A program made the position numbers and the translations under genes. Positions 1 through 25,126 of a stretch of DNA of 36,071 nucleotides are shown here, piece after piece. Position 1 is the stretch's first letter. Each line of letters opens with the position of its first letter. Under the pieces are notes generated by a model. That model worked only from the letters and a program-made list of their open reading frames with translations. It was not told the DNA's origin and made no database searches. This DNA comes from a bacterium (GTDB taxonomy: Bacteria > Elusimicrobiota > Elusimicrobia > UBA1565 > UBA9628), in NCBI GenBank assembly GCA_021783355.1, contig JAJXTZ010000005.1:1-36071 (forward strand). The letters are read 5' to 3'.

Positions 1-3000
1 CCGCCGCCCGCACCGCCGCCGCCGCCGAACCCGCCCAGGGAGGACGGAGCCTTCGGCGCGCCTCCGCCCTTGCCGGACGAAGAGTCGTCGCCGCCGCCGC
101 CGCCGCCCCGGCCTCCATGGGCGGGAGGCGTCCGGCGCGTCGCCGCCGTCCCCGAGGCGGGCGCGGTCGGGCCGCCGCCGAGGTTCGTCTTCGACGAAGG
201 CGGCGTGTCGCCGTCCTGGGGAGGAGTCTCGCCGCTGTCGCCCGTCGCGTCGCGGCGGCCGCCGCTGGGGAGCGTGGCCGGCGGAGGCGCCACGGTGAGA
301 AGGTCGGGAGGAGTGACCCCGGGAGGCATCGGACGCGCGGGCTGACTCAGGGCCACGAAGCGCTTCAGGGCGGGGGCCTTGTCGACCAGCCACTCGTTGA
401 ATTTGCGCAAGGCGCTCTTCGGCTCCTCGGGCTTGGCCGCGGCGTCCTCGGGCTTGGCCGCGGCGTCCTCGGGCTTGGCCGCGGCGTCCTCGGGCTTGGC
501 CGCGGCGTCCTCGGGCCGCGCAGGCCCATCCTCTCCGCGCAGGTTCATGCGCGGGCCCGGAGCTTCGCCCTCGGGAGCCCCCAGGGCTTTGGCGGCCCGG
601 GGTTCGGCGGCCTGGACGGCGGGCGCCTCGGCGGCCTTGGCGACCGGCGCGTCCGGCGCGGGGAGAGCCGCGGGCGCGGGGGCGTCGCCTCCGGGGCCGT
701 CGTTGGCGGACGCCCGGGTCCCGACGGGAGCGTCCGCGGACGGGAGGGAGGGATCGGGGGATTTGAAGGCGTCCATCATGCCGCGCCGCGCCGCGATGAG
801 GTCGCGGTATTCGGCATTGGCGCCCTCGTCGCCGGCGGCCAGCCGCGGCTGGAGCTCCACCGCCTTCGCCATGAAGCCCTTGTTGATCTCCTTGGGGGCC
901 GCGTCCGGCGCGACCTCCAGGACCTCGTGCGGGGCCGGCATGCGCACCGGCAGCTCAGGAGGCTCGGAGGCGAAGCTCGGCTCGTAGCGGACCGGCAGTT
1001 GCGGACGCGGGACCGGGAGCTGGACCTTTTCCGGCACGACCGGCTCGGCCGGCGCCGCCGGCGGAGCCGGGGGCGGGACCTCCTCCACCTTCGGGATCGG
1101 GGCGGCGTCGGGGCCCTTGGAGAAATGGTGCGCGGCCAGCACGCCCATGAAGGCGGCGTCCGCCGTGATCTTGCCGAGGTCCGACCAGCGCGCGCCCTCG
1201 TCGTTCCAGTCGGTCACCAGATGACTGACGTCATTGTACACCATGCCGCCCATGGCGGCCGTCATCGTCACGTCGAAGGTCTGCGCCGCCACGCGTCCCA
1301 CCTTGGCGATCGTGGGCGCCAGGCGGGGCACCACCGCCTCGGCGCCGACCGAGAGGCCCTCGCCCAGCATCGAAAGGCCGCCGCCGGCCACGACGACCAC
1401 CGCGGCGGTCTCCACCAGGCGGCCGCTCATCGAGGCCAGGAAACCGCCGACCTTGTTGCCGTGCGCGGCCATGTAGTCGCCGGCCTCGAACTTGCTGGCG
1501 GCCATCAGCATCTCGCTGTCCAGAGGGGGGGTTTCGCCGGCCATGCGGTACGCGATCGGAGCGCGCGTCCGGCTCATGCCGTTTTCGGCCATGGTCTTGA
1601 GGCGGTTCTTGACCGCCGTCTCGCGCAGCATCCCGGTCTGGTCATTGGTCAAGCCGCCCAGAAGCGACTTGTCGGCGTCGCTCATCAGCAGGCGGTTGGC
1701 CGGGTTGTTGTACCACTGGGTCTTGGCCTCCAGCCGCATCGCGTCGGAGCCGGCGACGGTGCCCACGGCCTCGTCCCAGCCCGCGCGGGCATACATCCCG
1801 ACCGAACTGAAGGCCCCGCCCACCGCCTGGACCGCGCCGACGTCGCCGAGGTGGGACAGCGCCGAACCCTTGGTGATCTCATACCGGAAGGCCTTCGACT
1901 CCCAGCACTGGCCCTTGGCGCAGTCCTCGGCGGTCTTCCACGCCCCATTGGCCTGCGTCCAGCGCTGGGCGCGGACGTGCATGACGGTCTTGGACTCCGC
2001 CCAAGGCTTGTACCAGGGCTGCTCGACCGCCTGGGCGGACTCGCCCCAGTGCAGCTTGGAGCCGTCGAAAAGGTACTCCCACTGGATCTTCTGGTCGAAA
2101 TTGCTCGCGTGCCCGTCGGCTCCGATCAGGGCCTGGCCGATCACGCCGAAGGAGAACCGCCCCTGCTTGCGGTCGCGGTACACCGGGGCGTCCTTGAAGA
2201 CGCCGCTGGTCACCCGCTTGGTCCCGTCCCGGAACGCGTAGATCAAGGTGAACTCGCGGTGGTCGTTGATGGAGAGCCGCACGGGCGGGCCCAGGCGCGG
2301 GTCCTGCAGGGCGTCGTTGACCGGGATCGCGTTGTCGTACAGGAAATTGGCCAGCTCCGCGGTCCGCTCCGGGTCCGCCGTCCCGTACAGGGCCTTCACC
2401 GCCTGGGCGGCCAGGCTCTGCGCCTTCCGTCGCCGCGCGGCCTGGTCGCGCGTGGAGACCAGGGCCATCACCGAGACGTTCCAGCCCAGGGTCTTGCCCT
2501 TGTCGTCCAGGAGCTGCGTGACGTCCGGGGAGCGCACGACGATCTGGTGGCCGTTCTGGAGGACCATCTTCGACAGCGCGAAGCGCCCGTACGCGTCGAT
2601 CTCGCCGACGCGCAGGGTCACCGCGCCCGGCGTCCCGGCGGGGGCGGGCTTGGCGCGGATCTCGACGCGGCGGTCCTTGCCGATCGTCGTCACCGAGCCG
2701 CTGAGCAGGTCCTGGATGCGGTGCTCGCCGGTCTTGGCGTCCACGCTCTCCACGCGCACCGCGCGCCCGTCCTTGAAGCTGGTGACGCGGTTGACGCCCT
2801 TGACGGCGTCGTAGGCTTGGCGGCTGGCCAGGCGTCCCGAGACGAACGCGTCCGAGAGCGCGGAGCGGACCTTCCCGGCGCCGTCGAAATCGACCTCGGT
2901 GATCGCCGTCTCGGCGGCCTTGCGCTGGATCAGCAATTGGGCCAGGACGCCCGGCGAAGTGCCGCGGAAGGAGGTCGATCCGTCGGGCGCCCGCGTCTCC

Positions 3001-4133
3001 AGGCCCACGTAGCTGCGCCCGTCGCGCGTGTAGCCGGCGAGGGTCGCCCCGGTCGAGCCGGCGCCGGCGGGGTAGATCTCCCAGGGCTGGAAGGTCTGGC
3101 CGAGGGGGACGCGGCGGGCGGCGACCTCGCGCTGAAGGAAGCCGCGGTAGTACCACAGCTCCTTCAGGAAGTCGCCCAGGGCCGGCCGGGCCAGCCCGAT
3201 GCGGTTGAGGCGCTCGCCCAGCCCCGACAGATCCTTGAGCTCGGCGGGCATGCCCAGGTTGCGCGCGATGTAGGACTCCTGCGATTCCAAGTTCGCGACC
3301 ATCGCGTCCAGGCTGGGGAAGGAGGCGGGATCCTGGCCGAAGCTGCGCTCCGCGCCGCCCGCGAGGGCCAGCAGGTTGGCCCGGAGGCGCGCGCGCTCGT
3401 CCAGGAACTTCTTCTCGCCGCCGTCCGGCAGCGCGTACCGGAAGGGCTGGAGAGCGGCGCCCAGGGCCGAGACGATCCCGCCCGAGGCGACCGTCCGTCC
3501 CTTGACCGGCGGGGCGGCGCGGCGCTCCGCCGGCGCCGGGATGACCTCCCGCTTGGTGCGGATGGAGCGCAGGGTGTGAGGGTCGCTCTCCGGCGTGTAA
3601 TCCACCGCGGTCTTCGCCGCGGGGGCCGCGCCGGAGCCGTCGCGCGGCTTGGTCTTCAGGCCCGCGCGGTCCCGCGACGCGTCGAAGACGCGCCCGGCCT
3701 GCTCCGGATGGACCGAGAGGCCCGCCAGCTGGCGCCCCACCAGGGCCAGCGCGTCGGCCTGGCGCGCGGGAGGGACCGCCTCGGCGGCGCGCAGCCCCTT
3801 GAGCGCGGCCGGATCCAGGGGTCCCGTCTCGGACAAGAGCTCGGCGCCCAGGGCCAGCCGCGCCGACACGATCTTGCGCGTGGAAGTCTCAAGCCCCGCG
3901 CCGGCCGCGTCGAACTCGGACCGCAGGACGCCTAGCCGCGCCTTCAGGCGGGTCCGGGAACCGGAGCCCGACTCCCGGAAGGCGACGATCGTCTTGAGCA
4001 GGGCCGCCGAGCTCTCCGGGAGGCTCGCCGCGGGGGCGCCCGCCGCGGCGGCGGACGACCGCGACGGAGAGACCGCCGCGAAGGCCATCGCGGCCGCTAA
4101 GAGGAGGGAGGGCGTGCGTCGCAGGCGCATCAT
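1..4133 (-). CDS. Giant secreted protein with degenerate J-like segment, 3' end outside window
   Basis: The minus frame stays open from ATG 4133 (a second in-frame ATG is at 4130) to the window edge, at least 1377 codons; I spot-checked the translation at several places. The N-terminus is basic followed by an Ala/Leu-rich stretch, a typical signal peptide, so export is inferred. The central ~900 residues match no family I recognise. A hydrophobic stretch lies around 1480-1250. Near residues 1062-1117 (about 780-950) the text HEVLEVAPDAAPKEI and a later EYRDLIAARRG resemble a DnaJ J-domain, but the HPD signature reads QPR. After this come Pro/Ala-rich sequence, four copies of EDAAAKP, and a Gly/Ser-rich tail. 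The promoter and a perfect palindrome lie just upstream. Function is unknown; a cell-surface or matrix protein is only a guess. Confidence 0.8.
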   Translation of the reverse strand, partial: MMRLRRTPSLLLAAAMAFAAVSPSRSSAAAAGAPAASLPESSAALLKTIVAFRESGSGSRTRLKARLGVLRSEFDAAGAGLETSTRKIVSARLALGAELLSETGPLDPAALKGLRAAEAVPPARQADALALVGRQLAGLSVHPEQAGRVFDASRDRAGLKTKPRDGSGAAPAAKTAVDYTPESDPHTLRSIRTKREVIPAPAERRAAPPVKGRTVASGGIVSALGAALQPFRYALPDGGEKKFLDERARLRANLLALAGGAERSFGQDPASFPSLDAMVANLESQESYIARNLGMPAELKDLSGLGERLNRIGLARPALGDFLKELWYYRGFLQREVAARRVPLGQTFQPWEIYPAGAGSTGATLAGYTRDGRSYVGLETRAPDGSTSFRGTSPGVLAQLLIQRKAAETAITEVDFDGAGKVRSALSDAFVSGRLASRQAYDAVKGVNRVTSFKDGRAVRVESVDAKTGEHRIQDLLSGSVTTIGKDRRVEIRAKPAPAGTPGAVTLRVGEIDAYGRFALSKMVLQNGHQIVVRSPDVTQLLDDKGKTLGWNVSVMALVSTRDQAARRRKAQSLAAQAVKALYGTADPERTAELANFLYDNAIPVNDALQDPRLGPPVRLSINDHREFTLIYAFRDGTKRVTSGVFKDAPVYRDRKQGRFSFGVIGQALIGADGHASNFDQKIQWEYLFDGSKLHWGESAQAVEQPWYKPWAESKTVMHVRAQRWTQANGAWKTAEDCAKGQCWESKAFRYEITKGSALSHLGDVGAVQAVGGAFSSVGMYARAGWDEAVGTVAGSDAMRLEAKTQWYNNPANRLLMSDADKSLLGGLTNDQTGMLRETAVKNRLKTMAENGMSRTRAPIAYRMAGETPPLDSEMLMAASKFEAGDYMAAHGNKVGGFLASMSGRLVETAAVVVVAGGGLSMLGEGLSVGAEAVVPRLAPTIAKVGRVAAQTFDVTMTAAMGGMVYNDVSHLVTDWNDEGARWSDLGKITADAAFMGVLAAHHFSKGPDAAPIPKVEEVPPPAPPAAPAEPVVPEKVQLPVPRPQLPVRYEPSFASEPPELPVRMPAPHEVLEVAPDAAPKEINKGFMAKAVELQPRLAAGDEGANAEYRDLIAARRGMMDAFKSPDPSLPSADAPVGTRASANDGPGGDAPAPAALPAPDAPVAKAAEAPAVQAAEPRAAKALGAPEGEAPGPRMNLRGEDGPARPEDAAAKPEDAAAKPEDAAAKPEDAAAKPEEPKSALRKFNEWLVDKAPALKRFVALSQPARPMPPGVTPPDLLTVAPPPATLPSGGRRDATGDSGETPPQDGDTPPSSKTNLGGGPTAPASGTAATRRTPPAHGGRGGGGGGDDSSSGKGGGAPKAPSSLGGFGGGGGAGG
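431..514. repeat. Four tandem 21-bp repeats inside the giant secreted protein gene
   Basis: The unit gcttggccgcggcgtcctcgg occurs four times head to tail (431-451, 452-472, 473-493, 494-514). It keeps the reading frame and encodes the heptad EDAAAKP on the minus strand. It looks like a flexible linker that has grown by slippage; copy number may vary among strains. Confidence 0.9.
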
Positions 4134-4187
4134 AGCCAGGGTATCCCCAAGGGACCCAACCGGGCAGGGGCCCAAGACCCATCGGCT

Positions 4188-4207
4188 CCTAGGACTAAAG
4201 TCCTAGG
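4188..4207. promoter_or_regulatory. Perfect 20-bp palindrome (candidate operator)
   Basis: Arms CCTAGGACT (4188-4196) and AGTCCTAGG (4199-4207) are exact reverse complements around a two-base centre. The palindrome sits between a candidate promoter (4228-4256) and the start of the giant secreted gene at 4133. A two-base loop is unfavourable in RNA, so a dimeric protein-binding site is more likely than a terminator. A related shorter palindrome lies in the pilT promoter. Confidence 0.6.
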
Positions 4208-4227
4208 CGTCCCGAGGGGCTGACGGT

Positions 4228-4256
4228 AGCATAACCCCGCCGGACGGCCCGCGCAA
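4228..4256 (-). promoter_or_regulatory. Candidate sigma-70-type promoter of the giant secreted gene
   Basis: On the minus strand TTGCGC (4256-4251) is followed after 17 bases by TATGCT (4233-4228). The same TTGCGC box with a 17-base spacer precedes tRNA-Lys in this window. Transcription would start near 4221, putting the palindrome in the early leader. Confidence 0.45.
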
Positions 4257-4264
4257 GGGCTAAT

Positions 4265-5164
4265 TTAAGAGGGCTTCAGGGCGGACAAACGCTCCTCGAA
4301 CCGCGCCTGGGCCTTGCTCCCTTCCTCTTTGAGGAGATGGTACTTGCTGGCCTTGGGCGACAGGATGACGAGGAACTTCGCCGGGACGCCGGCGCGGCGG
4401 TAGGCGGCGACCTTGTGGTGGCCGTCCAGGAGGAAGCCGGCCATGAAGGAGTGCAGGGTCTTGTTCGTGCCCTTCTTGACCTGCTCCGGAATGCCGCGCT
4501 GGTACATGCCCAGCATCAGCACGCGCGGGCGGTCGCCGTTCTGGATCATCTGCTGGTAGAGCTTGACGTACTCTTCCTTGAGCGCGGCGCGGGGGACCAG
4601 CGGGATCACGAAGTCGTACTGCTTCTCGACCACGCCGCCGTCGGCGTGGCGGAAGATGCGCGGACGCTGGCACTCGTAGTGCTCCCAGCCGGAGAGGAGT
4701 CCCTCTTCCTTGGGGTCCTCGATGTCCCAGAGCTCCATGAACTCGCTCTGGAAGAAGTAGGACGCCTCGTCCTCGGAGTCGTACGGCCCGGCCAGGTTGA
4801 CCGAGGTCTCGAAGACGAGGTACTCGCCCTTCTCCATCAGGTCCAGCATGGGAGCGAGTTCCTGCACCAGCGCCTCGTCCACGGGGCGAGGGAGCTGGAT
4901 GGTCTTGGGCAGGTTGGCGATCTTGCGGGAGGTGGGCAGGCGCGGCTCCTGCAGCATCTTGAACCAGAAGTGGCAGGTGTCGCAGTCGTTGCCGATCTCG
5001 AACTTGCGCGCCCCATTGACTTCGAGGAACAGCGAGTTCGCCTCGCCGTGGCGCTTCTCCACGGCGACCTTGAAGAAACCTTTGCCCTGCGGGACCTTGA
5101 CGCGAACGACGCCGTCGGCGACGGCCGTCACCTCAAGTTTCGGCGGCTTGGTCTCTGAAGTCAC
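4265..5164 (-). CDS. ParB/sulfiredoxin-like protein with N-terminal Cys-x2-Cys-His motif
   Basis: A 299-residue soluble protein with no signal peptide. The GTG start at 5164 is chosen because GGAGGAG lies a few bases upstream; the same frame runs open further upstream but would cross the divergent gene at 5321. Two motifs stand out: CDTCHFWF at residues 61-68, a possible metal or redox site, and DGHHKVAAYRRAGVP from residue 247, which resembles the DGHHR core of the ParB/sulfiredoxin-like nucleotide-binding fold. In that family this loop binds CTP or ATP. The rest, rich in acidic and aromatic residues, is unfamiliar. It is divergent from the coiled-coil gene. A ParB-like nuclease or nucleotide-binding role is possible but unproven; chromosome partitioning is unlikely because no ParA is adjacent. 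Confidence 0.75.
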   Translation of the reverse strand: MTSETKPPKLEVTAVADGVVRVKVPQGKGFFKVAVEKRHGEANSLFLEVNGARKFEIGNDCDTCHFWFKMLQEPRLPTSRKIANLPKTIQLPRPVDEALVQELAPMLDLMEKGEYLVFETSVNLAGPYDSEDEASYFFQSEFMELWDIEDPKEEGLLSGWEHYECQRPRIFRHADGGVVEKQYDFVIPLVPRAALKEEYVKLYQQMIQNGDRPRVLMLGMYQRGIPEQVKKGTNKTLHSFMAGFLLDGHHKVAAYRRAGVPAKFLVILSPKASKYHLLKEEGSKAQARFEERLSALKPS

Positions 5165-5320: not shown

Positions 5321-7777
5321 ATGGAGCAGTGGGACGAGCAGGCCCTCCGGGAGATCAACAACCTCGACGCCGCGCGGCTGGCCATCCGCGGGGCTCTGGC
5401 CACCATCCGCGACCTGCAGGACGCCAACGCGGGGCTCAAGGGCCAGGTCCAGGACGAGGCGTCCAAGCGCAAGGTCCTGGAGACGCGCCTCGCGGCCCTC
5501 GACGACCGCCTGGCCGACTGGCAGGCAAAAGCCGCCGAATGGGAGAAGGAGCGTCAGGAGCGCGAGCGCGGCATGCAGGCCTGGAAGAACGAGGCCCGGC
5601 AGGAGGTCCGCGGCGAGGAGCGCGCGCGCATCGAGGAGGACCGCCGCCGGACCGAGGAGATCGTCGCCCGCCTGCGCGCGGACCTGGCCGCGATGGCCCA
5701 GGCGCAGAAGGGCAAGGAGGAGGCCTGGGCCACCCTGCGCGGAGAGCTCGAGAAGCGCGACCGCGAGATCGCCGCCCTGCGCCGCGACAAGGAGGAGTCC
5801 CTCGACCGCGCGCGGCACGACCTCGACATGGTGGAGGAGCTGCGCACGGCCCGCGACCGCGAGATCGCCGCCGCGACGCGCGCGCGCGAGGTCGAGCTGC
5901 AGGACAAGGCCAACGAGATCGCCGCGCTCAAGCGCGCCAACGACGAGGCGCGCCAGGCGCTCGAGGAGCTCTCCCGCGACCAGGAGCTGCGCGCCAAGGC
6001 CCGCGAGGAGCAGTTCGCCAAGGCCTACCAGCTCAAAGAGAAGGACCTGGTCGCGCGCTACCAGCGCCGGGAGTCCGAGTTGCAGGCGCAGTGGTCGGAG
6101 CTCGAGCAGGGGCTGTGGGCGAAGGCCAAGCAGTCGCGCGCCCAGCTCGACGAGGCGGTGCGCCAGCAGTTCGACGAGCGCGCCCGCCAGCTCGCCGACC
6201 GCGCCAACGAGATCGAGGCCCTGCTCGCGCGCCGCAAGACCGAGCTCGACGAGGACTTCACGCGGCGCTGCTCAGAGGCCGAGGCGCGCTACGCCGACGC
6301 CGAGAAGCGCCTGCTGGCCGGCTGGGACGAGAAGGAAAAGCGGGCGTCCCTGCGCGCGCAGTCCGAGCTGGCGGCCGAGCGCGAGACGATGCGCGCCGAG
6401 TGGGAGGAGCGGCGCAAGGCGCTGGAGAACGAGGCCGCCGAGCGCCTGCGCGCCCTGGACGCGCGCGCCGAGGAGGGGGAGCGCGAGCGCAAGCATCTCC
6501 AGCGCCGCCTGCTGGAGGAGGCCGCGCGCAAGGACGCCGAGCGCGTGCGCGCGCAAGACGACTTCGCCGCGGACAAGGCCGCGGAGCTCGACAAGGAGCG
6601 CGCGCAGGCCCTGGCGGAGGCGGCCGAGCGGCGGCGGGCGCTGGAGGAGGAGGCCCGGGCGCGCGAGGAGCGCCGCCAGGCCGATCTGACCGCCCAGCAG
6701 ACCGCGCTGACCGAGGAGCACGAGCGCCGCCGCGCGGAGCTGATGGACGAGCACCGGCGCGCGCTGGCCGCGGAGCGCGCGGCGCTGTCGGCCGAGTTCG
6801 ACGCCCGCCAGCGCGCGCTCGACGACGAGCACCGCGCCAAGACCGCCGAGGCCGAGCGCGCCGCCCGCGCCCTGGTCGAGCAGCACGAGGCCTGGAAAGC
6901 CTCCCTGCGCGAGGACTACCTGCGCAAGGAGAAGGACCTGGACGCGCGCTGGGCCGCCCGGGAGGGGGACCTCGTGCGCCGCTACGACACGGCCGCCGAG
7001 GAGCAGCGCCGCTCCTTCCTCGCCGAGGCCGCCGGGCTGCGAGACCAGGCCGAGGCCCAGCGCCGGCGCGCCGAGGAGGACGCGCTGCGCCGCGAGCAGG
7101 TCCTGCGCCAGGACTACGAGCGCGGCTTGGCCGAGCTGCGGACCGCCCACGCGCGCGACCTCTCCGCCCGCGACGCGGCGCAGGAGGCGCGCCTGGGCGA
7201 GCTGCGCCGCGCCTGCGACGAGGCCGTGAGCCTGGCCCGGGAGAAATCCTTCGAGGAGCTGGCCCGCGACCGCGCGGTCCTGCAGGAGGAGCTCTCCCGC
7301 CTGCACGAGGCCGCCGCCGCCCGTAAGGCCGAGGACGAGCGGCGCGCGACCGCCGACGCCGCCCGCATCCGGGAGCTGGAGGCCCGTCTGGCCGCCGCCG
7401 ACCGCGCGCGCCAGGAGACCGCCGAGGACTCCGCCGCCGCCGCGCGCGACCTGGCCGCCCTGCGCGCCCAGCTGGCCGAGCGCGACCGTCTCTCCGGGCT
7501 GGAGCGCGAGCGCGTGCGCGAGGAGGCCCGCCTGGCCGCCTCCGCCGAGCTCGCCAAGACCCTGCAGGAGGCCGAGAACGAGCGCGCCAAGGCCTTCGCC
7601 GCACGCGTGGCCGAGAACGAGAAGGCCGCCGCCGCGCGCCGCCGGGCGCTGGACGCGGCCTTGGCCGAGCGCGCGCGGGCCTTGGACGACCGCGAGCGGC
7701 GCCTGGAGGAGGACGCGGCGGTGCTCGACGAGGCGCGCCGCGCCGACGAGCAGCGCCGCCGCCGGCCGTCCGCCTGA
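5321..7777 (+). CDS. Long coiled-coil protein (818 residues)
   Basis: ATG 5321 is preceded by GAGG at suitable spacing. Almost the whole protein is Glu/Arg/Ala/Lys-rich with continuous heptad-like patterning, predicting one very long alpha-helical coiled coil. There is no signal peptide, membrane segment, Walker motif or globular domain, and very few prolines after the first residues. The C-terminus ends in a short basic tail. Similarity to SMC or myosin rods would be compositional only. A cytoskeletal, scaffold or spacer role in the cytoplasm is a reasonable inference from shape, not from homology. It is divergent from the ParB/Srx-like gene and is followed by a YtxH-type gene with its own promoter. 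The strong codon bias here generates long false frames on other strands. Confidence 0.85.
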   Translation: MEQWDEQALREINNLDAARLAIRGALATIRDLQDANAGLKGQVQDEASKRKVLETRLAALDDRLADWQAKAAEWEKERQERERGMQAWKNEARQEVRGEERARIEEDRRRTEEIVARLRADLAAMAQAQKGKEEAWATLRGELEKRDREIAALRRDKEESLDRARHDLDMVEELRTARDREIAAATRAREVELQDKANEIAALKRANDEARQALEELSRDQELRAKAREEQFAKAYQLKEKDLVARYQRRESELQAQWSELEQGLWAKAKQSRAQLDEAVRQQFDERARQLADRANEIEALLARRKTELDEDFTRRCSEAEARYADAEKRLLAGWDEKEKRASLRAQSELAAERETMRAEWEERRKALENEAAERLRALDARAEEGERERKHLQRRLLEEAARKDAERVRAQDDFAADKAAELDKERAQALAEAAERRRALEEEARAREERRQADLTAQQTALTEEHERRRAELMDEHRRALAAERAALSAEFDARQRALDDEHRAKTAEAERAARALVEQHEAWKASLREDYLRKEKDLDARWAAREGDLVRRYDTAAEEQRRSFLAEAAGLRDQAEAQRRRAEEDALRREQVLRQDYERGLAELRTAHARDLSARDAAQEARLGELRRACDEAVSLAREKSFEELARDRAVLQEELSRLHEAAAARKAEDERRATADAARIRELEARLAAADRARQETAEDSAAAARDLAALRAQLAERDRLSGLERERVREEARLAASAELAKTLQEAENERAKAFAARVAENEKAAAARRRALDAALAERARALDDRERRLEEDAAVLDEARRADEQRRRRPSA

Positions 7778-9822: not shown

Positions 9823-10703
9823 CGCGCGCGCGCGCCCAGGCGCAGGGTCTTCAGCAGGCGCTGGAAGGCCGGCAAGTAGGTCTCGTAGGAGTCGGACGGG
9901 GCGCTGTACACGAAGGAATAGTACGACTCTTTGGAGAGCGGGAGATAGACGGAGCGCGTGTCGCCCGGGACATAGGTCATGTGCGCCTGGAGGCCGGCCA
10001 CGGGCACCAGGCCGCCGTCCTTGGCTCCCTGCCAGTCGAAGTCCCGGGACATCGCGGCGTCCATGTCCTGGTAGGTGGTCTGCTCCTGCTGGAGGTAGCT
10101 GACCGTGATGGTCACGGGCTTGCCCGGGCGGCCGTCGTCGAGGCTCAGATAGATGGTGGGGACGTCGTCTCCCCAGGAGTCCTGGAGGCGGAAGGAGCGC
10201 GGGTACTCGAAGGAGATGCGCCGCGCGCGGGTGTAGCGCGTGAAGGTGGCTGGGTCCACGACCCGCAGGCGCGAGGCCTGGGCGACGCAATGATACGGCT
10301 CCAGCGGGTCGGTGGTGCGCACGGGGACCTTTCCCGGCGGACAGCCAGCCGAGCCCGTCGACGCCTGCGCGGGACCCGGGGCCCTCGGCGAGCCCGGCAG
10401 CGGGGCAAGTTCCGGGTCGGTGCTGGGCGCGCCGGACACGACGCAGCGATAGGGCTGGAGGGAGTCGCCCGTGGACACCGGGCGCGATCCCCGCGGGCAG
10501 CGAGGGCGGAACTCGAAGCCCTTCGGGCCGTCCACCTTCCCCAGCGCGCTCTTCGCCGGCGAGCCGTCCTTCTCGCAGTGAAAGGGATCGTAAGGGTCGT
10601 CGGTCAGGACGCGATGCGTCCCCGACGGACACTCGGCCGGCGCCTCCCCGGCCGCCGCGGGCCGCGCCGCCAGCAGGGCGGCCAGGAGGAGCGCGGCGCT
10701 CAC
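9819..10703 (-). CDS. Secreted protein with three Cys-x17-Cys repeats
   Basis: A 294-residue protein starting at GTG 10703, whose GTGA overlaps the upstream stop. Residues 1-19 form a signal peptide ending in an Ala-rich cleavage region. Three similar units follow, each opening with CP(S/R/P)G and closing with P(F/Y)xC: Cys25/43, Cys69/87 and Cys121/139, always 18 positions apart, with a conserved TxDxxxPYxC ending. This suggests three small disulfide-closed modules. The C-terminal half (about 150-294) has the look of a beta-rich PsbP/DUF1795-like domain, with ISFEYPRSF near its start and LPAFQRLLKTLRL near its end. No family is firmly recognised. Its place downstream of pilT suggests an envelope role, but nothing proves it. 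Confidence 0.75.
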   Translation of the reverse strand: MSAALLLAALLAARPAAAGEAPAECPSGTHRVLTDDPYDPFHCEKDGSPAKSALGKVDGPKGFEFRPRCPRGSRPVSTGDSLQPYRCVVSGAPSTDPELAPLPGSPRAPGPAQASTGSAGCPPGKVPVRTTDPLEPYHCVAQASRLRVVDPATFTRYTRARRISFEYPRSFRLQDSWGDDVPTIYLSLDDGRPGKPVTITVSYLQQEQTTYQDMDAAMSRDFDWQGAKDGGLVPVAGLQAHMTYVPGDTRSVYLPLSKESYYSFVYSAPSDSYETYLPAFQRLLKTLRLGARAR

Positions 10704-12336: not shown

Positions 12337-12411
12337 TCCGGGCTAGCTCAACGGTAGAGCAGACCGCTGTTAACGGTAAGGTTGTAGGTTCGAATCCTAC
12401 GCCCGGAGCCA
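12337..12411 (+). tRNA. tRNA-Asn (anticodon GTT)
   Basis: The cloverleaf folds fully: acceptor TCCGGGC/GCCCGGA, D arm GCTC/GAGC, anticodon loop CTGTTAA with GTT, T arm GTAGG/CCTAC with TTCGAAT, discriminator G and encoded CCA (12409-12411). Pair 27-43 is a G-A mismatch. The 3' end is the left boundary of the restriction-modification island. Confidence 0.95.
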
Positions 12412-12419
12412 CTCTGACG
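12405..12419. repeat. Left 15-bp direct repeat at tRNA-Asn 3' end (attL-like)
   Basis: GGAGCCACTCTGACG starts in the acceptor stem, includes the CCA and eight bases beyond. The identical sequence occurs at 15330-15344. This is the typical footprint of tRNA-targeted site-specific integration. Confidence 0.8.
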
Positions 12420-12425
12420 CTGGTC

Positions 12426-12489
12426 AAAACTGACCTTGTCGCCATCGACGGACCATCCGAGGTCCGGCAGAGGGCGCAAGGTCAGTTTT
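12426..12489. repeat. 13-bp inverted repeat just inside the left island end
   Basis: AAAACTGACCTTG (12426-12438) is exactly complementary to CAAGGTCAGTTTT (12477-12489). The 38-base centre holds a second stem, CGGACC/GGTCCG (12449-12454 and 12461-12466). It could be a structured end recognised by a recombinase, or a transcript hairpin acting as the present tRNA terminator. Confidence 0.6.
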
Positions 12490-12549
12490 ATTTTCGACGC
12501 CTGCGTGTCGCAGACGATATCGGCCATGAGGAGAGCCTCTGAAGGTTCA

Positions 12550-12587
12550 CCCCGCCAGGACGGGGAATAAACTCGGCGAAAGTCGCC
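12550..12587 (-). terminator. Two small hairpins downstream of the methyltransferase gene
   Basis: GGCGA/TCGCC (12575-12587) and CCCCG/CGGGG (12550-12565) lie within 65 bases after the stop at 12613 on the minus strand. Neither has a long U-tract, so termination is tentative. Confidence 0.35.
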
Positions 12588-12612
12588 TAGCCCAACAATG
12601 GGGGAGGAATTC

Positions 12613-14298
12613 TTATCGTCGCGTGTCGACGAAGTCGAATTGGGGGAGGGACTTCAGCTTGTAGGCGCGAAGCGCTAGAACGTCCAGCCGCTTGAAGTCG
12701 CGCGCGGTGAAGGCCTCGCGGAGATCGCTGGCTAATTGCGGGGCGATATCGTCCGGCTTCGGAATCCGGATACGCCGGAGATACTGCGCCTGGAAGCGCA
12801 GATAGCTGCCCCGCATCTTCGTCGCGTATGACCAGATGAAGAACAGCGCGACCTTGGAGCTGAGGAGCCCTCCAAGCACGGCCATGTCCCAGGCATCGGA
12901 CGTGACGTAGTAGAGATTATGATGCGGATGGTAATGCCCCTTATCCAAGGCCACTTCATTCGATCCAGCGATGTCTGGGATCAGGAGTTTCGGGACCTTC
13001 ACCAGCTCCGGGTAGACTCGGTCAATCGTCCGGAACCACGAGTCCGGGTTCTTTTGCGCGACATGCCGGCGCTTAACCTCAAGGCCGTGAGCGTCGAGGT
13101 GCTTCCGCAGGTGGGGGTAGTCTGCCAGCGTGATCGCCCGGCCCGCTTCATCGAACGTGTTGATCACGAAATGATGGTTGTTTTTGAGCTTGCCGTTTTC
13201 GATGTCGGCGCGCATGACCAAGGGGACAAGGCGGTCCCCTTCGATGCCCGAATCATCGCCGACAATGTAGGCTGCATCGCAACCCGTCGCGACACCAATG
13301 CGGACCTTGGTCTTGCCATCGGCCTCAATCGGAGCGAAGCGCGATTCCAAGTCGCGCAATACTTTCAGGTGCTCGGGGGGGCTCAACACCCAGGGCTCGT
13401 CAGCGATGAACCAGGCTGGGTACGTCGATATCGTCGCGTTCTTCGATCCAACTCGCAGACCCCGGATCAGATCCGCGCATTCGTCAGCAGAGGCGTCAGA
13501 CAGACGCGCGACAGGAACAGGTCCTGGAATTCCGGGGGAGATGGCGAAGATCGACGGATATGCGATGACTTCCGATTCGAAAGGCGAGGCGTGATGAAGA
13601 TCGACGTATGCCTTCACTTGGAATTTCTCTGCGATGATCTTGCGCAACGGCGCGCCATAACGATTCAGGGTCCAGCGATCGGCGCAGATGAATGAGAGCA
13701 CTCCGTCAGGCCTCAGCAGGCCCAAGCTCCTTTCGATAAATGCCACGTAGAGATCGGCCCGGTCGAAGAGCGACTCGTATCGGCGGCGATACTCGCTCTG
13801 CAGCTCTGGAGCCAGCTGCTCGATCCGAATGTAGGGCGGATTCCCGACAATCGCATCGAAGCCCTCGTCTCCAAGCGGCGCAAGGAGGTAATCGTCCTCA
13901 TGAATCCAAGACTCGACAAGTCTCTTGGCCGCGCCGTTCCCGATGCCTTCTTCGTTCAGAACTGCCTCGACCGCGCGCTTGGTCGCTTCCACATGAACGC
14001 GATCAATGTCGTAAGCGCGAATGCAATCAGAAAGCTGCGAGGGCTTCCGGCTGTGCCGCCGCGCGGACCTGACAAGGCGTCGGGCGGCAGGAATGAGAAA
14101 CGCCCCGGTGCCGCAGGACGGCTCCAAGAGCCGGAGGTTCGCCAAGTCGCGATTCTCTGAATACCCCGCGAGATCCAGGATCATGTTGACGATATGAGGC
14201 TTGGTCAACACAACGCCATGAGTCTCGCCGGACGTGCGCTTGCCGTAGTCGTAGGCCTCGGGGGGAAACTTGACTCCGAGGTTTAGGAGGGGGTGCAT
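12613..14298 (-). CDS. Type II N6-adenine DNA methyltransferase, PaeR7I/XhoI-type system
   Basis: A 561-residue protein beginning ATG 14298, seven bases after the endonuclease stop. The SAM-binding motif EPSCGTGAF is at residues 59-67 and the catalytic motif NPPY at 153-156, the order of gamma-class N6-adenine methyltransferases. The C-terminal ~300 residues, with aromatic and basic segments such as MRGSYLRFQAQYLRRIRIP, fit a fused target-recognition domain. Length and layout are like M.PaeR7I (about 530 residues). It would protect host DNA by methylating the adenine of the site cut by the neighbouring enzyme, probably CTCGAG. It lies in the tRNA-Asn island and differs in codon use from flanking genes. 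Confidence 0.9.
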   Translation of the reverse strand: MHPLLNLGVKFPPEAYDYGKRTSGETHGVVLTKPHIVNMILDLAGYSENRDLANLRLLEPSCGTGAFLIPAARRLVRSARRHSRKPSQLSDCIRAYDIDRVHVEATKRAVEAVLNEEGIGNGAAKRLVESWIHEDDYLLAPLGDEGFDAIVGNPPYIRIEQLAPELQSEYRRRYESLFDRADLYVAFIERSLGLLRPDGVLSFICADRWTLNRYGAPLRKIIAEKFQVKAYVDLHHASPFESEVIAYPSIFAISPGIPGPVPVARLSDASADECADLIRGLRVGSKNATISTYPAWFIADEPWVLSPPEHLKVLRDLESRFAPIEADGKTKVRIGVATGCDAAYIVGDDSGIEGDRLVPLVMRADIENGKLKNNHHFVINTFDEAGRAITLADYPHLRKHLDAHGLEVKRRHVAQKNPDSWFRTIDRVYPELVKVPKLLIPDIAGSNEVALDKGHYHPHHNLYYVTSDAWDMAVLGGLLSSKVALFFIWSYATKMRGSYLRFQAQYLRRIRIPKPDDIAPQLASDLREAFTARDFKRLDVLALRAYKLKSLPQFDFVDTRR

Positions 14299-14305
14299 GC
14301 TATTC

Positions 14306-15043
14306 TTACGATTGACCCGCTAAAATTGTTCCAATGTGGCCGCCGAGACTGGCGAAGAATTGCTTTGCCTGCAGGTCGGCCGCGGGCTCTTTGTATTGGC
14401 CCTTCTTGCCTTCTGCTTCAGTCGCCACGAGGAACGTCGCGGCGTCGTAGAGGCGTTCGCGGACGAGGCGGCGAAGCAGCAGCTCGTAGCGCTTCATGTA
14501 CGACGTCCCTTTGAACTCGGGGAAAACGGGGAAGTGCGGCTCATCCACGGAAACCGGCGAGCGGGAATCCTCGCAGTCTTCCAGCAACATCAACCAGCCG
14601 AGCCACGGCCGCGGACTCTCGGTAAACGCGCCTTCGCGGTACGCGGTCCAAAGGTCGTGCGCCGTGCCGATGGCCTCTTCGGAACGATTGTTGAAGTTGT
14701 TGCCGAAGGAGGGCCCGCGCTGTGATTTAAATTCCATCGCGGCGACCAACTTCCCCTTGTAAACAACAACGAGGTCCCATCTTTTGGTCGGTCGAAAGAA
14801 GCCCGGAAGCTCAAGCTTCTTATCCAGATGGATATGTGCCTCTGGCATCCCGTTCGCGACGAGAACGTCACTGACGAGACGGCAAAAGCCGTTCATCTGC
14901 TTGCCGGCAACAACGGCGGCGCGGCCTGCTCGGTCAGCCTTCTTGCCCTTGCGCTGCTTTCGAGACTGGCTGGCGAGCGTTTTCCAATAATGCGCTACCG
15001 CGAGTCCAACCTTTTGCTCTAAGTCCTTTGGGATAACTGCCAT
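14306..15043 (-). CDS. PaeR7I/XhoI-family type II restriction endonuclease
   Basis: A 245-residue protein starting ATG 15043. Long stretches match the PaeR7I family as I recall it: PGFFRPTKRWDL, EFKSQRGPSFGNNFNNR, EEAIGTAHDLWTAYREGAF and PHFPVFPEF. Asp90, Glu104 and Lys106 (WDL...MEFK) form a PD-(D/E)xK nuclease core. Length equals the family's (~246). PaeR7I and XhoI cut CTCGAG, so the same site is predicted here. Sites occur in nearby host genes, for example at 5747, 5960, 6101 and 35465, so the partner methyltransferase should be active. The nuclease gene precedes the methyltransferase gene in one operon. No obvious controller protein is adjacent. Confidence 0.92.
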   Translation of the reverse strand: MAVIPKDLEQKVGLAVAHYWKTLASQSRKQRKGKKADRAGRAAVVAGKQMNGFCRLVSDVLVANGMPEAHIHLDKKLELPGFFRPTKRWDLVVVYKGKLVAAMEFKSQRGPSFGNNFNNRSEEAIGTAHDLWTAYREGAFTESPRPWLGWLMLLEDCEDSRSPVSVDEPHFPVFPEFKGTSYMKRYELLLRRLVRERLYDAATFLVATEAEGKKGQYKEPAADLQAKQFFASLGGHIGTILAGQS

Positions 15044-15061
15044 TGACCGGGGCCTCGGACG

Positions 15062-15277
15062 CTAAGCGGTGATGCATTCTACCAAATTCATGCGGCCAGA
15101 GCGGGGAAGCTGGGCGCGCCGATTATTCGAGAACTGGCATCGCTGAAGTGGCAGCGCCTCAAGTTCTGCGAGAAGTTCGCCACAATTATCGATCGACTCT
15201 GGGACGACGACCCATTTCTCACCGACGCCCGACGCCTCGTCTCTTGAGATCGTCAACGTTAAGATAAATCGAGTCAA
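15062..15277 (-). CDS. Possible small protein at the head of the restriction operon
   Basis: A 71-codon frame beginning with TTG 15277 and ending 18 bases before the endonuclease start. The product has no helix-turn-helix pattern, so it does not look like a restriction-modification controller, and I recognise no family. The TTG start coincides with a TTGACT sequence that could equally be a -35 box. The opposite strand is open in part too. Together with 15278-15329 and 15383-15486 this leaves 15044-15486 with no securely supported gene; the rest of it holds the right island end and a terminator. Confidence 0.2.
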   Translation of the reverse strand: MTRFILTLTISRDEASGVGEKWVVVPESIDNCGELLAELEALPLQRCQFSNNRRAQLPRSGRMNLVECITA

Positions 15278-15307
15278 CGAGGCGAGTGGCGCTTGATGTC
15301 ATCCTCG

Positions 15308-15329
15308 CCAGAACCCTGATCTGTTCTGG
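15308..15329. repeat. Inverted repeat CCAGAAC-N8-GTTCTGG at the right island end
   Basis: Seven-base arms (15308-15314, 15323-15329) abut the right-hand direct repeat. A comparable short inverted repeat, GGTC-N6-GACC, lies at 12422-12435 by the left copy. These could be recombinase binding arms. Confidence 0.45.
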
Positions 15330-15344
15330 GGAGCCACTCTGACG
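15330..15344. repeat. Right 15-bp direct repeat (attR-like)
   Basis: An exact copy of the tRNA-Asn 3' end and its first downstream bases (12405-12419). Identity stops on both sides: G instead of C before it and A instead of C after it. Confidence 0.8.
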
Positions 15345-15346
15345 AG

Positions 15347-15382
15347 GACGCCTCCCGGCCGCGCGCCGGGAGGCGTCTTTTT
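15347..15382 (+). terminator. Intrinsic terminator, probably the original tRNA-Asn terminator
   Basis: Arms GACGCCTCCCGG (15347-15358) and CCGGGAGGCGTC (15366-15377) form a perfect 12-bp stem followed by TTTTT (15378-15382). It is the strongest intrinsic terminator in the window. On this strand nothing upstream needs it except tRNA-Asn, now 2.9 kb away. Confidence 0.88.
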
Positions 15383-24016: not shown

Positions 24017-25126
24017 ATGAAGATCGGAGTGCCGAAGGAAATCAAGAACCGCGAACACCGCGTGGGCCTGGTGCCCGGCGGCGTGCGCGCGCTGGTCAAG
24101 GACGGCCATAAGGTCCTGATCGAGAAGTCCGCCGGCGTCGGCTCCGGGATCCCGGACGACGACTACAAGGCCGCGGGCGCGGCGATCGTGGACAAGAAGC
24201 GCCTGTTCGCCGACGCGGACATGATCATCAAGGTCAAGGAGCCCCTCGAGGAGGAGTACGCCCTGTTCCGCGAAGGCCAAATCCTTTATACGTACCTGCA
24301 CTTGGCCCCCGCTCCGGCGCTGACCAAGGCGCTCCTCAAGGCCAAGGTCCGCGCGGTCGCCTACGAGACCATCCAACTGCGCGACGGCTCCCTGCCCCTG
24401 CTGACCCCGATGAGCGAGGTCGCAGGCAAGATGTCGGTGCAGCTGGGCGCGCAGTTCCTGGAGAAGCACCACGGCGGGCGCGGCGTGCTCCTCGGCGGCG
24501 TCCCCGGCGTGGACCGCGGCGTGGTGACCATCATCGGCGGCGGCGTGGTGGGCATCAACGCGGCCAAGATCGCCATCGGCATGGGCGCGCGCGTGAACAT
24601 CCTGGACGTCTCCGCCCCGCGCCTGGCCTACCTCGACGACGTGTTCGGCAACTCCGTCACCACCCTGATGAGCCACGAAGAGAACATCCAGAAGGCCGTC
24701 GTGCGCTCGGACCTGCTGATCGGCGCGGTGCTCATCCCCGGCGCCAAGGCGCCGCACCTGGTCACCGTGGACATCGTCAAGCAGATGCGTCCCGGCTCGG
24801 TGATCGTGGACGTGGCCGTGGACCAGGGCGGCTGCGTGGAGACCGCGGAGGTCACCAGCCACGACAAGCCCGTCCTCGTCAAGCACGGCGTCCTCCATTA
24901 CGCGGTGCCCAACATCCCGGGCGCCGTCGCCCACACCTCGACCTACGCGCTGACCAACGTCACGCTCAAGTACGCGCGCGACATCGCGCGCTACGGCCTG
25001 GAGGACGCGGTGCGCCGCGACGAGGCCCTGCGCAAGGGCGTCAACTGCTACCGGGGGAGGGTCGTGCACGCGGCCGTCGCCGCGTCGCTCGGCGAGAAGC
25101 CCGTCGAGCTTGAGACGCTGGTCTAG
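24017..25126 (+). CDS. ald: Alanine dehydrogenase
   Basis: A 369-residue NAD-dependent enzyme interconverting L-alanine and pyruvate plus ammonia, normally hexameric and cytoplasmic. ATG 24017 has GAGGAG upstream. The opening [18 protein letters not shown] is diagnostic, with Arg15; Lys74 (KVKEP) and His95 (YLHLAP) are the substrate-binding and catalytic residues. IIGGGVVG is the dinucleotide-binding loop, and [11 protein letters not shown] carries the conserved aspartate. Length is normal. Located beside a peptide importer and peptidase operon, it fits catabolism of alanine released from peptides, or ammonia assimilation in reverse. Confidence 0.96.

Follow-up and report, generated by a model that had tools for sequence, protein, structure and literature searches.

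A stretch of 36,071 nucleotides from a genome of the phylum Elusimicrobiota (GenBank assembly GCA_021783355.1, contig JAJXTZ010000005.1, hereafter the window) carries an island with a restriction-modification (R-M) pair immediately downstream of a tRNA-Asn gene. Our analysis indicated that this island is probably what remains, in place, of an element that a large serine recombinase (LSR) specific for tRNA genes inserted at the 3' end of tRNA-Asn, in front of the terminator of this tRNA gene. The window's own genome, designated G000, is a draft of approximately 91% completeness, and the genomes compared with it were likewise drafts or metagenome-assembled genomes (MAGs).

The boundaries of the island could be read directly. 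The repeat GGAGCCACTCTGACG, which comprises the last acceptor-stem bases of the tRNA, the discriminator, CCA, and eight further bases, occurs in two exact 15-bp copies spaced by 2925 nucleotides (Table 1). When the 5 kb to the right was resampled with a first-order Markov model, a 15-base word from the tRNA end recurred in 0/1000 resamplings, and a 13-mer in 4/1000. The insert was shown to have a GC content of 59-60% versus approximately 70% or more in its surroundings, and GC3 of the R-M genes was 0.71-0.73 versus 0.92-0.96 in the flanking genes tested. A perfect stem of 13 bp followed by T5 begins two nucleotides past the right copy, and no plus-strand gene nearby that would need this terminator was found, other than tRNA-Asn itself.

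Comparison with congeners gave both the empty and the filled state of this site. In seven genomes (G015, G002, G001, G006, G010, G005, and G016), tRNA-Asn is followed by a short spacer and then by a hairpin with a T-run. The order pilT-tRNA-Asn is kept within the genus, and on the right side of the island an alanine dehydrogenase gene (24017-25126 in the window) was found in both the window and the nearest relative, G017, the same gene lying approximately 2 kb past tRNA-Asn in G001. Three candidate readings of the surroundings were discarded: the M3 peptidase gene was dropped as a right-flank anchor after its copy in G012 proved to lie in another context, away from tRNA-Asn; the tRNA-Asn site of G003, first read as empty, is occupied by another LSR and was not counted; and that of G012, also first read as empty, was taken out of the count as ambiguous. 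The G012 site (L185, around 9165) looks like the tail end of another group of LSRs, the second one seen, and perhaps represents another decayed island that keeps only its terminator-bearing end. These comparisons bore out part of the sequence-only reading, which had described the exact repetition of the tRNA-Asn 3' end, the AT-richer PaeR7I-type R-M pair between the copies, and a strong terminator with no nearby plus-strand gene to serve, and had derived from them direct boundaries with a reconstructable empty site; the relatives it proposed to look for, with tRNA-Asn directly before the terminator, were found in the seven congeners, and G017 supplied an independent filled site with a repeat of its own.

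In G017 (record JAJXVH010000005.1, BP5.bin24), the same R-M pair (96% amino acid identity) was located at tRNA-Asn between two copies of a 17-bp repeat, GGAGCCATTTTGTACGC, that lie 7.9 kb apart, with a terminator after the right copy. This repeat differs from that of G000, which suggests that the two insertions were separate. The dS values between G000 and G017 were 0.19 for the methyltransferase and 0.21 for the endonuclease, whereas those of pilT, the alanine dehydrogenase gene, and the gene at 10700 were 0.66, 0.42, and 0.91, respectively; the R-M genes were therefore acquired or exchanged after the hosts had split. The bases following CCA agree between both ends within each genome (CTCTGACG in G000 and TTTTGTACGC in G017), and when both ends were combined into a reconstructed attP (GTTCTGGGGAGCCAC TCT GACGCTGGTCAAAAC), a dyad GTTYTG...AGC around the tRNA end was visible upon comparison by eye. 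Between its R-M pair and right repeat, the G017 island (L168, 8613-13608) additionally encodes an HNH protein and three others: one of 211 aa that resembles a receiver domain, one of 805 aa in which two HATPase domains were recognised, and one of 448 aa with an NPPF motif. These genes are possibly further defence cargo.

The left end of the G000 island was identified as the tail of an LSR gene. The 40-aa remnant matched residues 486-525 of the 531-aa LSR of G013 with 73% identity over 40 aa (blastx E value of 3e-18, with this single protein as target). The G013 LSR consists of Resolvase, Recombinase, and Zn-ribbon domains, and the remnant is homologous to its C-terminal part; the catalytic N-terminal domain is absent from the island, where the C-terminal scrap alone is left. 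The corresponding tail in G017 covers residues 499-531 (91% over 33 aa), is still in frame, and has its stop codon in the tRNA. A truncation shared by G000 and G017 was considered and dropped, since the boundaries of the two remnants differ. A truncated LSR gene at the left end and a transposase fragment at the right end therefore marked the island as the residue of a larger, integrase-borne element, and the claim of the sequence-only reading that the 2.9-kb R-M pair is itself the mobile element was not supported.

The latter claim corresponds to an independent cassette that would have duplicated a 15-bp target at tRNA-Asn upon its insertion, an explanation we consider very improbable. Such a cassette would account for the low dS of the R-M genes, which have moved or been exchanged, and for the different repeats at the G000 and G017 sites. 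In both genomes, however, the left end is formed by the tail of an LSR gene, the 7.9-kb insert of G017 carries more genes, the island encodes no recombinase, and other relatives of the R-M pair mostly lie without a tRNA or LSR gene nearby. It is also quite unlikely that a tyrosine integrase made the insertion, as happened at most tRNA islands, and that the LSR tail was left by an earlier element at the same hotspot. Tyrosine integrases typically produce such a 15-17-bp repeat of the 3' end of a tRNA, and a tyrosine-recombinase-like open reading frame (ORF) stands beside tRNA-Met on another contig of G000 (C161). However, neither such a gene nor a remnant of one was seen among the ORFs between the repeats, and the LSR tail adjoins the left repeat in just the way observed in intact LSR elements.

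Table 1. Features of the island at tRNA-Asn (positions in the window)
Feature	Position	Strand	Basis
tRNA-Asn (GTT), integration target	12337..12411	+	ARAGORN; pilT-tRNA-Asn order kept in many congeners
Left repeat copy, attL core: tRNA 3' end + CTCTGACG	12405..12419	+	Exact repeat; chance 0/1000
LSR remnant, 40 aa	12417..12536	-	blastx, translation; frame disrupted at tRNA junction
Hairpin + TTTTATTTT, proposed substitute terminator of tRNA-Asn, antisense in LSR tail	12426..12494	+	Folding; also present in G017 and in five intact LSR genes
Type II adenine DNA methyltransferase (Eco57I/TaqI_C) with intact NPPY motif	12613..14298	-	Pfam, PADLOC
XhoI/PaeR7I-type restriction endonuclease	14306..15043	-	Pfam PF04555, E=2.3e-90; PADLOC REase_II
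ISL3-family transposase gene fragment	15101..15206	+	Fuller copy on C161 of the same genome
Right repeat copy, attR core	15330..15344	+	Exact repeat
Native tRNA-Asn terminator, displaced	15347..15382	+	Hairpin + T-run; comparison with empty sites

Relatives of the LSR were sought in 341 genomes of the phylum and found in 82 of them. Gene ends were counted for the 22 relatives that showed at least 44% identity and had a readable end. The gene ended antisense at the 3' end of a tRNA gene in 19/22, and the stop codon fell 11-27 nt inside the tRNA in 15 of the 22; the genes of G051 and G038 read further through the tRNA, and in G223 and G224 the gene end lies at a tRNA-Asn bearing a group I intron, as read by eye. 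By our own estimate, which assumes approximately 45 tRNA genes in a genome of approximately 2.6 Mb, the chance of a gene end falling at a tRNA is well under 0.1% per gene. The intron of the latter two tRNA-Asn genes (L201, 1080-1440 and L200, 2256-2560) is located in the anticodon loop (Rfam RF00028), and ARAGORN gives no call there; both halves of the split tRNA were seen by eye in G223, and the 3' half only in G224.

The intact relatives in Elusimicrobiota that end at a tRNA are found at tRNA-Gln, -Asn, or -His. The closest LSRs (66-94% identity), from G003, G005, G011, and G030, are situated at tRNA-Gln and arranged like that of G013 at tRNA-Asn; the G013 and G003 enzymes are 94% identical, yet one is at tRNA-Asn and the other at tRNA-Gln. 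In the tree, Gln, Asn, His, and Ser targets fell within one LSR clade, the Ser members on long branches, and the genes of more remotely related serine recombinases at tRNA-Asn, -Asp, and -Gln likewise end inside the tRNA. Two phage contigs from IMG/VR carry an LSR of this kind (52% and 51%): one of these LSR genes runs into tRNA-His, whereas the contig with the other breaks off at the same tRNA end. In a search for an intact attP in these contigs, no second copy of that tRNA end was found. G000 itself has an empty site of the type at which the closest LSRs are inserted: after its tRNA-Gln(CTG) come CTCTAGACG and then a terminator (contig C249; L006, 1224-1372).

The hairpin within the LSR tail, formed on the tRNA strand, has a 13-pair outer stem followed by the T-rich TTTTATTTT, with a folding energy of -41.7 kcal/mol and a z-score of -8.0 against dinucleotide shuffles. 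Its counterpart in G017 reached -43.5 kcal/mol (z -8.2), and those in intact LSR genes -31 to -40 kcal/mol, so that the hairpin is stronger in both decayed copies. As the stretch belongs to the protein-coding sequence of intact LSR genes, 22 of these genes were each resampled 200 times with synonymous codons. In five close LSRs, the longest stem (12-13 bp) was reached in 0-8/200 resamples, and G334, G335, the tRNA-Asn LSR of G003, and the tRNA-Asp LSR of G010 have, at the same spot, stems of 12-17 bp that are unrelated to it and were reached in 0-1/200, with tails that are mostly T-rich. Taken together, 9/22 intact genes possessed a stem of 12-17 bp that was attained in at most 8/200 resamples. 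Judging from these folds, the hairpin derived from the LSR tail is probably a substitute terminator for tRNA-Asn, and the simplest reading of the gene comparison is that some LSR genes evolved an antisense terminator serving the tRNA more than once, and that it was kept after the integrase had been lost. The sequence-only reading had described the tRNA as split from its terminator; this holds for the native terminator, which was displaced, but a strong T-tailed hairpin still follows the tRNA.

On a broader scale, we lean toward the view that Elusimicrobiota hold an old lineage of LSRs specialised in tRNA 3' ends. The stop codon of these LSRs would be supplied by the target tRNA, and some of them would also have an antisense replacement terminator in their last approximately 25 codons; this double use would have arisen several times and would outlive the integrase.

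Several results weigh against these interpretations. No clear hairpin excess was detected in 13/22 of the resampled genes (16/200 in G020 and 23/200 in G136 were borderline, and eleven were unremarkable), and pair covariation over eight aligned hairpins was not significant. The attR of the intact G013, G003, and G005 elements was not found by long exact repeats or by terminator context. The bases after CCA differ between G000 and G017, and both from the family pattern NTTCAGACG, which is not readily explained by a fixed attP. The draft or MAG quality of the genomes, including the incompleteness of G000, is a further reservation. Because the covariation was not significant, support for the hairpin was drawn from the resampling and from its recurrence. 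The hairpin might instead have no terminator function and simply result from the protein sequence of the LSR together with high GC content, which we regard as unlikely: the covariation result and the absence of the hairpin from many LSR genes of the wider set would fit such an origin, but in nine intact genes the stems are longer than synonymous resampling accounts for, unrelated stems are found in four further lineages, and the hairpin is kept in both decayed copies.

Based on these observations, the following course of events is proposed for the LSR remnant. An LSR-borne element would have inserted between tRNA-Asn and its terminator, with the LSR gene adjoining the tRNA and pointing into it, as in the intact relatives, whose stop codon lies antisense in the T-arm side. 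The integrase body would later have been lost, leaving the last approximately 40 codons, the R-M pair, and a scrap of transposase gene. Within the LSR tail left behind are the attL half-site and the hairpin, which, read in the direction of the tRNA, would act as a terminator. Persistence of the R-M pair is probably explained by its value in cell defence and the possible lethality of its loss, and may in turn have protected the island. Loss of an R-M pair can be lethal to the cell, which would favour retention by addiction.

Both R-M genes are on the minus strand and apparently intact, the XhoI-family endonuclease adjoining the Eco57I-type adenine methyltransferase as in PaeR7I/XhoI type II R-M systems, from which no notable difference was seen. 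The hexamer CTCGAG, which would be the target of such a system, occurred 28 times in approximately 53 kb versus 41.8 expected, a weak and unspecific depletion shared by GTCGAC and GGATCC. Apart from the R-M genes, only the two gene scraps were recognised between the repeats, the integrase and any transfer genes being gone. No match to Resolvase or Recombinase domains was detected in the G000 draft genome, and because no LSR was found there, self-mobility of the island is unlikely. It might nevertheless be cis-mobilisable and still be moved in the population by the LSRs of other elements, a possibility to which we give some, though lesser, credence: the two copies of the repeat are still intact, as is the LSR tail that contains the attL half-site, the R-M pair postdates the split of the hosts, and close LSRs are present in congeners, but the G000 draft yielded no LSR, and the LSR tails of G000 and G017 have different boundaries, so that no common truncated mobile unit emerged.

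Among known systems, the in-place remnant resembles a cis-mobilisable element (CIME), namely, a decayed integrative and conjugative or integrative and mobilisable element that retains attL and attR (PMC5704250). It shares with CIMEs the site-specific insertion between att repeats, which are retained here as an exact 15-bp pair and in G017 as a second case, the loss of integrase and transfer genes, and the preservation of cargo; it differs in apparently descending from a serine rather than a tyrosine integrase at a tRNA. The tRNA islands of tyrosine integrases (Islander, PMC4383910) likewise target tRNA 3' ends and are flanked by a short direct repeat, whereas the present island ends in a serine recombinase tail and contains no tyrosine integrase gene. 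Serine integrases at tRNAs were described as rare in a 2011 survey, which named phiRSM1 as one case and, as another, a set of Mycobacterium elements that use tRNA-Leu (PMC3218068). The phiRSM phages of Ralstonia use 13 bp at the 3' end of tRNA-Ser (PMC4471427), and the serine recombinases of the Mycobacterium actinomycete integrative and conjugative elements (AICEs) act at tRNA-Leu (PMC3218068). In all of these a serine-family integrase sends integration to a tRNA gene; the phiRSM integrase is set apart by its description as a member of the resolvase/invertase subfamily, versus the large LSR clade found here, and the Elusimicrobiota clade differs from both in spanning Gln, Asn, His, and Ser tRNAs, in placing the stop codon inside the tRNA, and in bearing hairpins in part of its members. 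Serine integrases at tRNAs thus have precedent, and it is the wider clade pattern that deserves follow-up; no published report of an Elusimicrobiota clade of tRNA-targeting LSRs was found among open-licence papers.

While serine integrases are usually said to avoid tRNA genes or to use them rarely, here a whole clade apparently uses them. Target switches between close LSRs, such as those of G013 and G003, make the evolution of target choice directly testable, and the clade offers integrases with a conserved tRNA end as attB. A built-in substitute terminator, if true, would explain how insertion between a needed tRNA and its terminator can be harmless, and also why a scrap of the gene is kept after the integrase has died. 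Islands of tRNA-using serine integrases may escape methods designed on the expectation that the integrase at a tRNA is of the tyrosine type.

Further observations concern related loci. After G017, the next relatives of the R-M pair were titled Elusimicrobia. A general linkage of the pair to tRNA genes was not supported, a tRNA or LSR gene being nearby at few of the other R-M loci. At one locus (L108, 1523-8430; Elusimicrobia GWB2_63_16), 3 kb separate a pair of XhoI-type R-M genes from a different LSR of 497 aa, whose stop codon is 11-12 nt inside tRNA-His, and the tRNA-adjacent sequence recurs inverted past the LSR gene, near 3306. On contig C161 of G000 (L005), tRNA-Met (626-702) is followed by the tyrosine-recombinase-like ORF (741-1778, plus strand), a minus-strand ORF of 1110 aa (1804-5136) that reads like a P-loop NTPase, and a minus-strand ISL3 transposase gene (5382-6416; PF01610, checked with Pfam); this region is possibly a second tRNA island of the genome. 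In a distant phylum, a contig of Deltaproteobacteria NC_groundwater_501 (L112) carries tRNA-Asn on its reverse strand (2-77); 1.8 kb downstream (about 1828), 18 bp of the 3' end of this tRNA are repeated in front of a terminator-like sequence, indicating another small insertion at tRNA-Asn.

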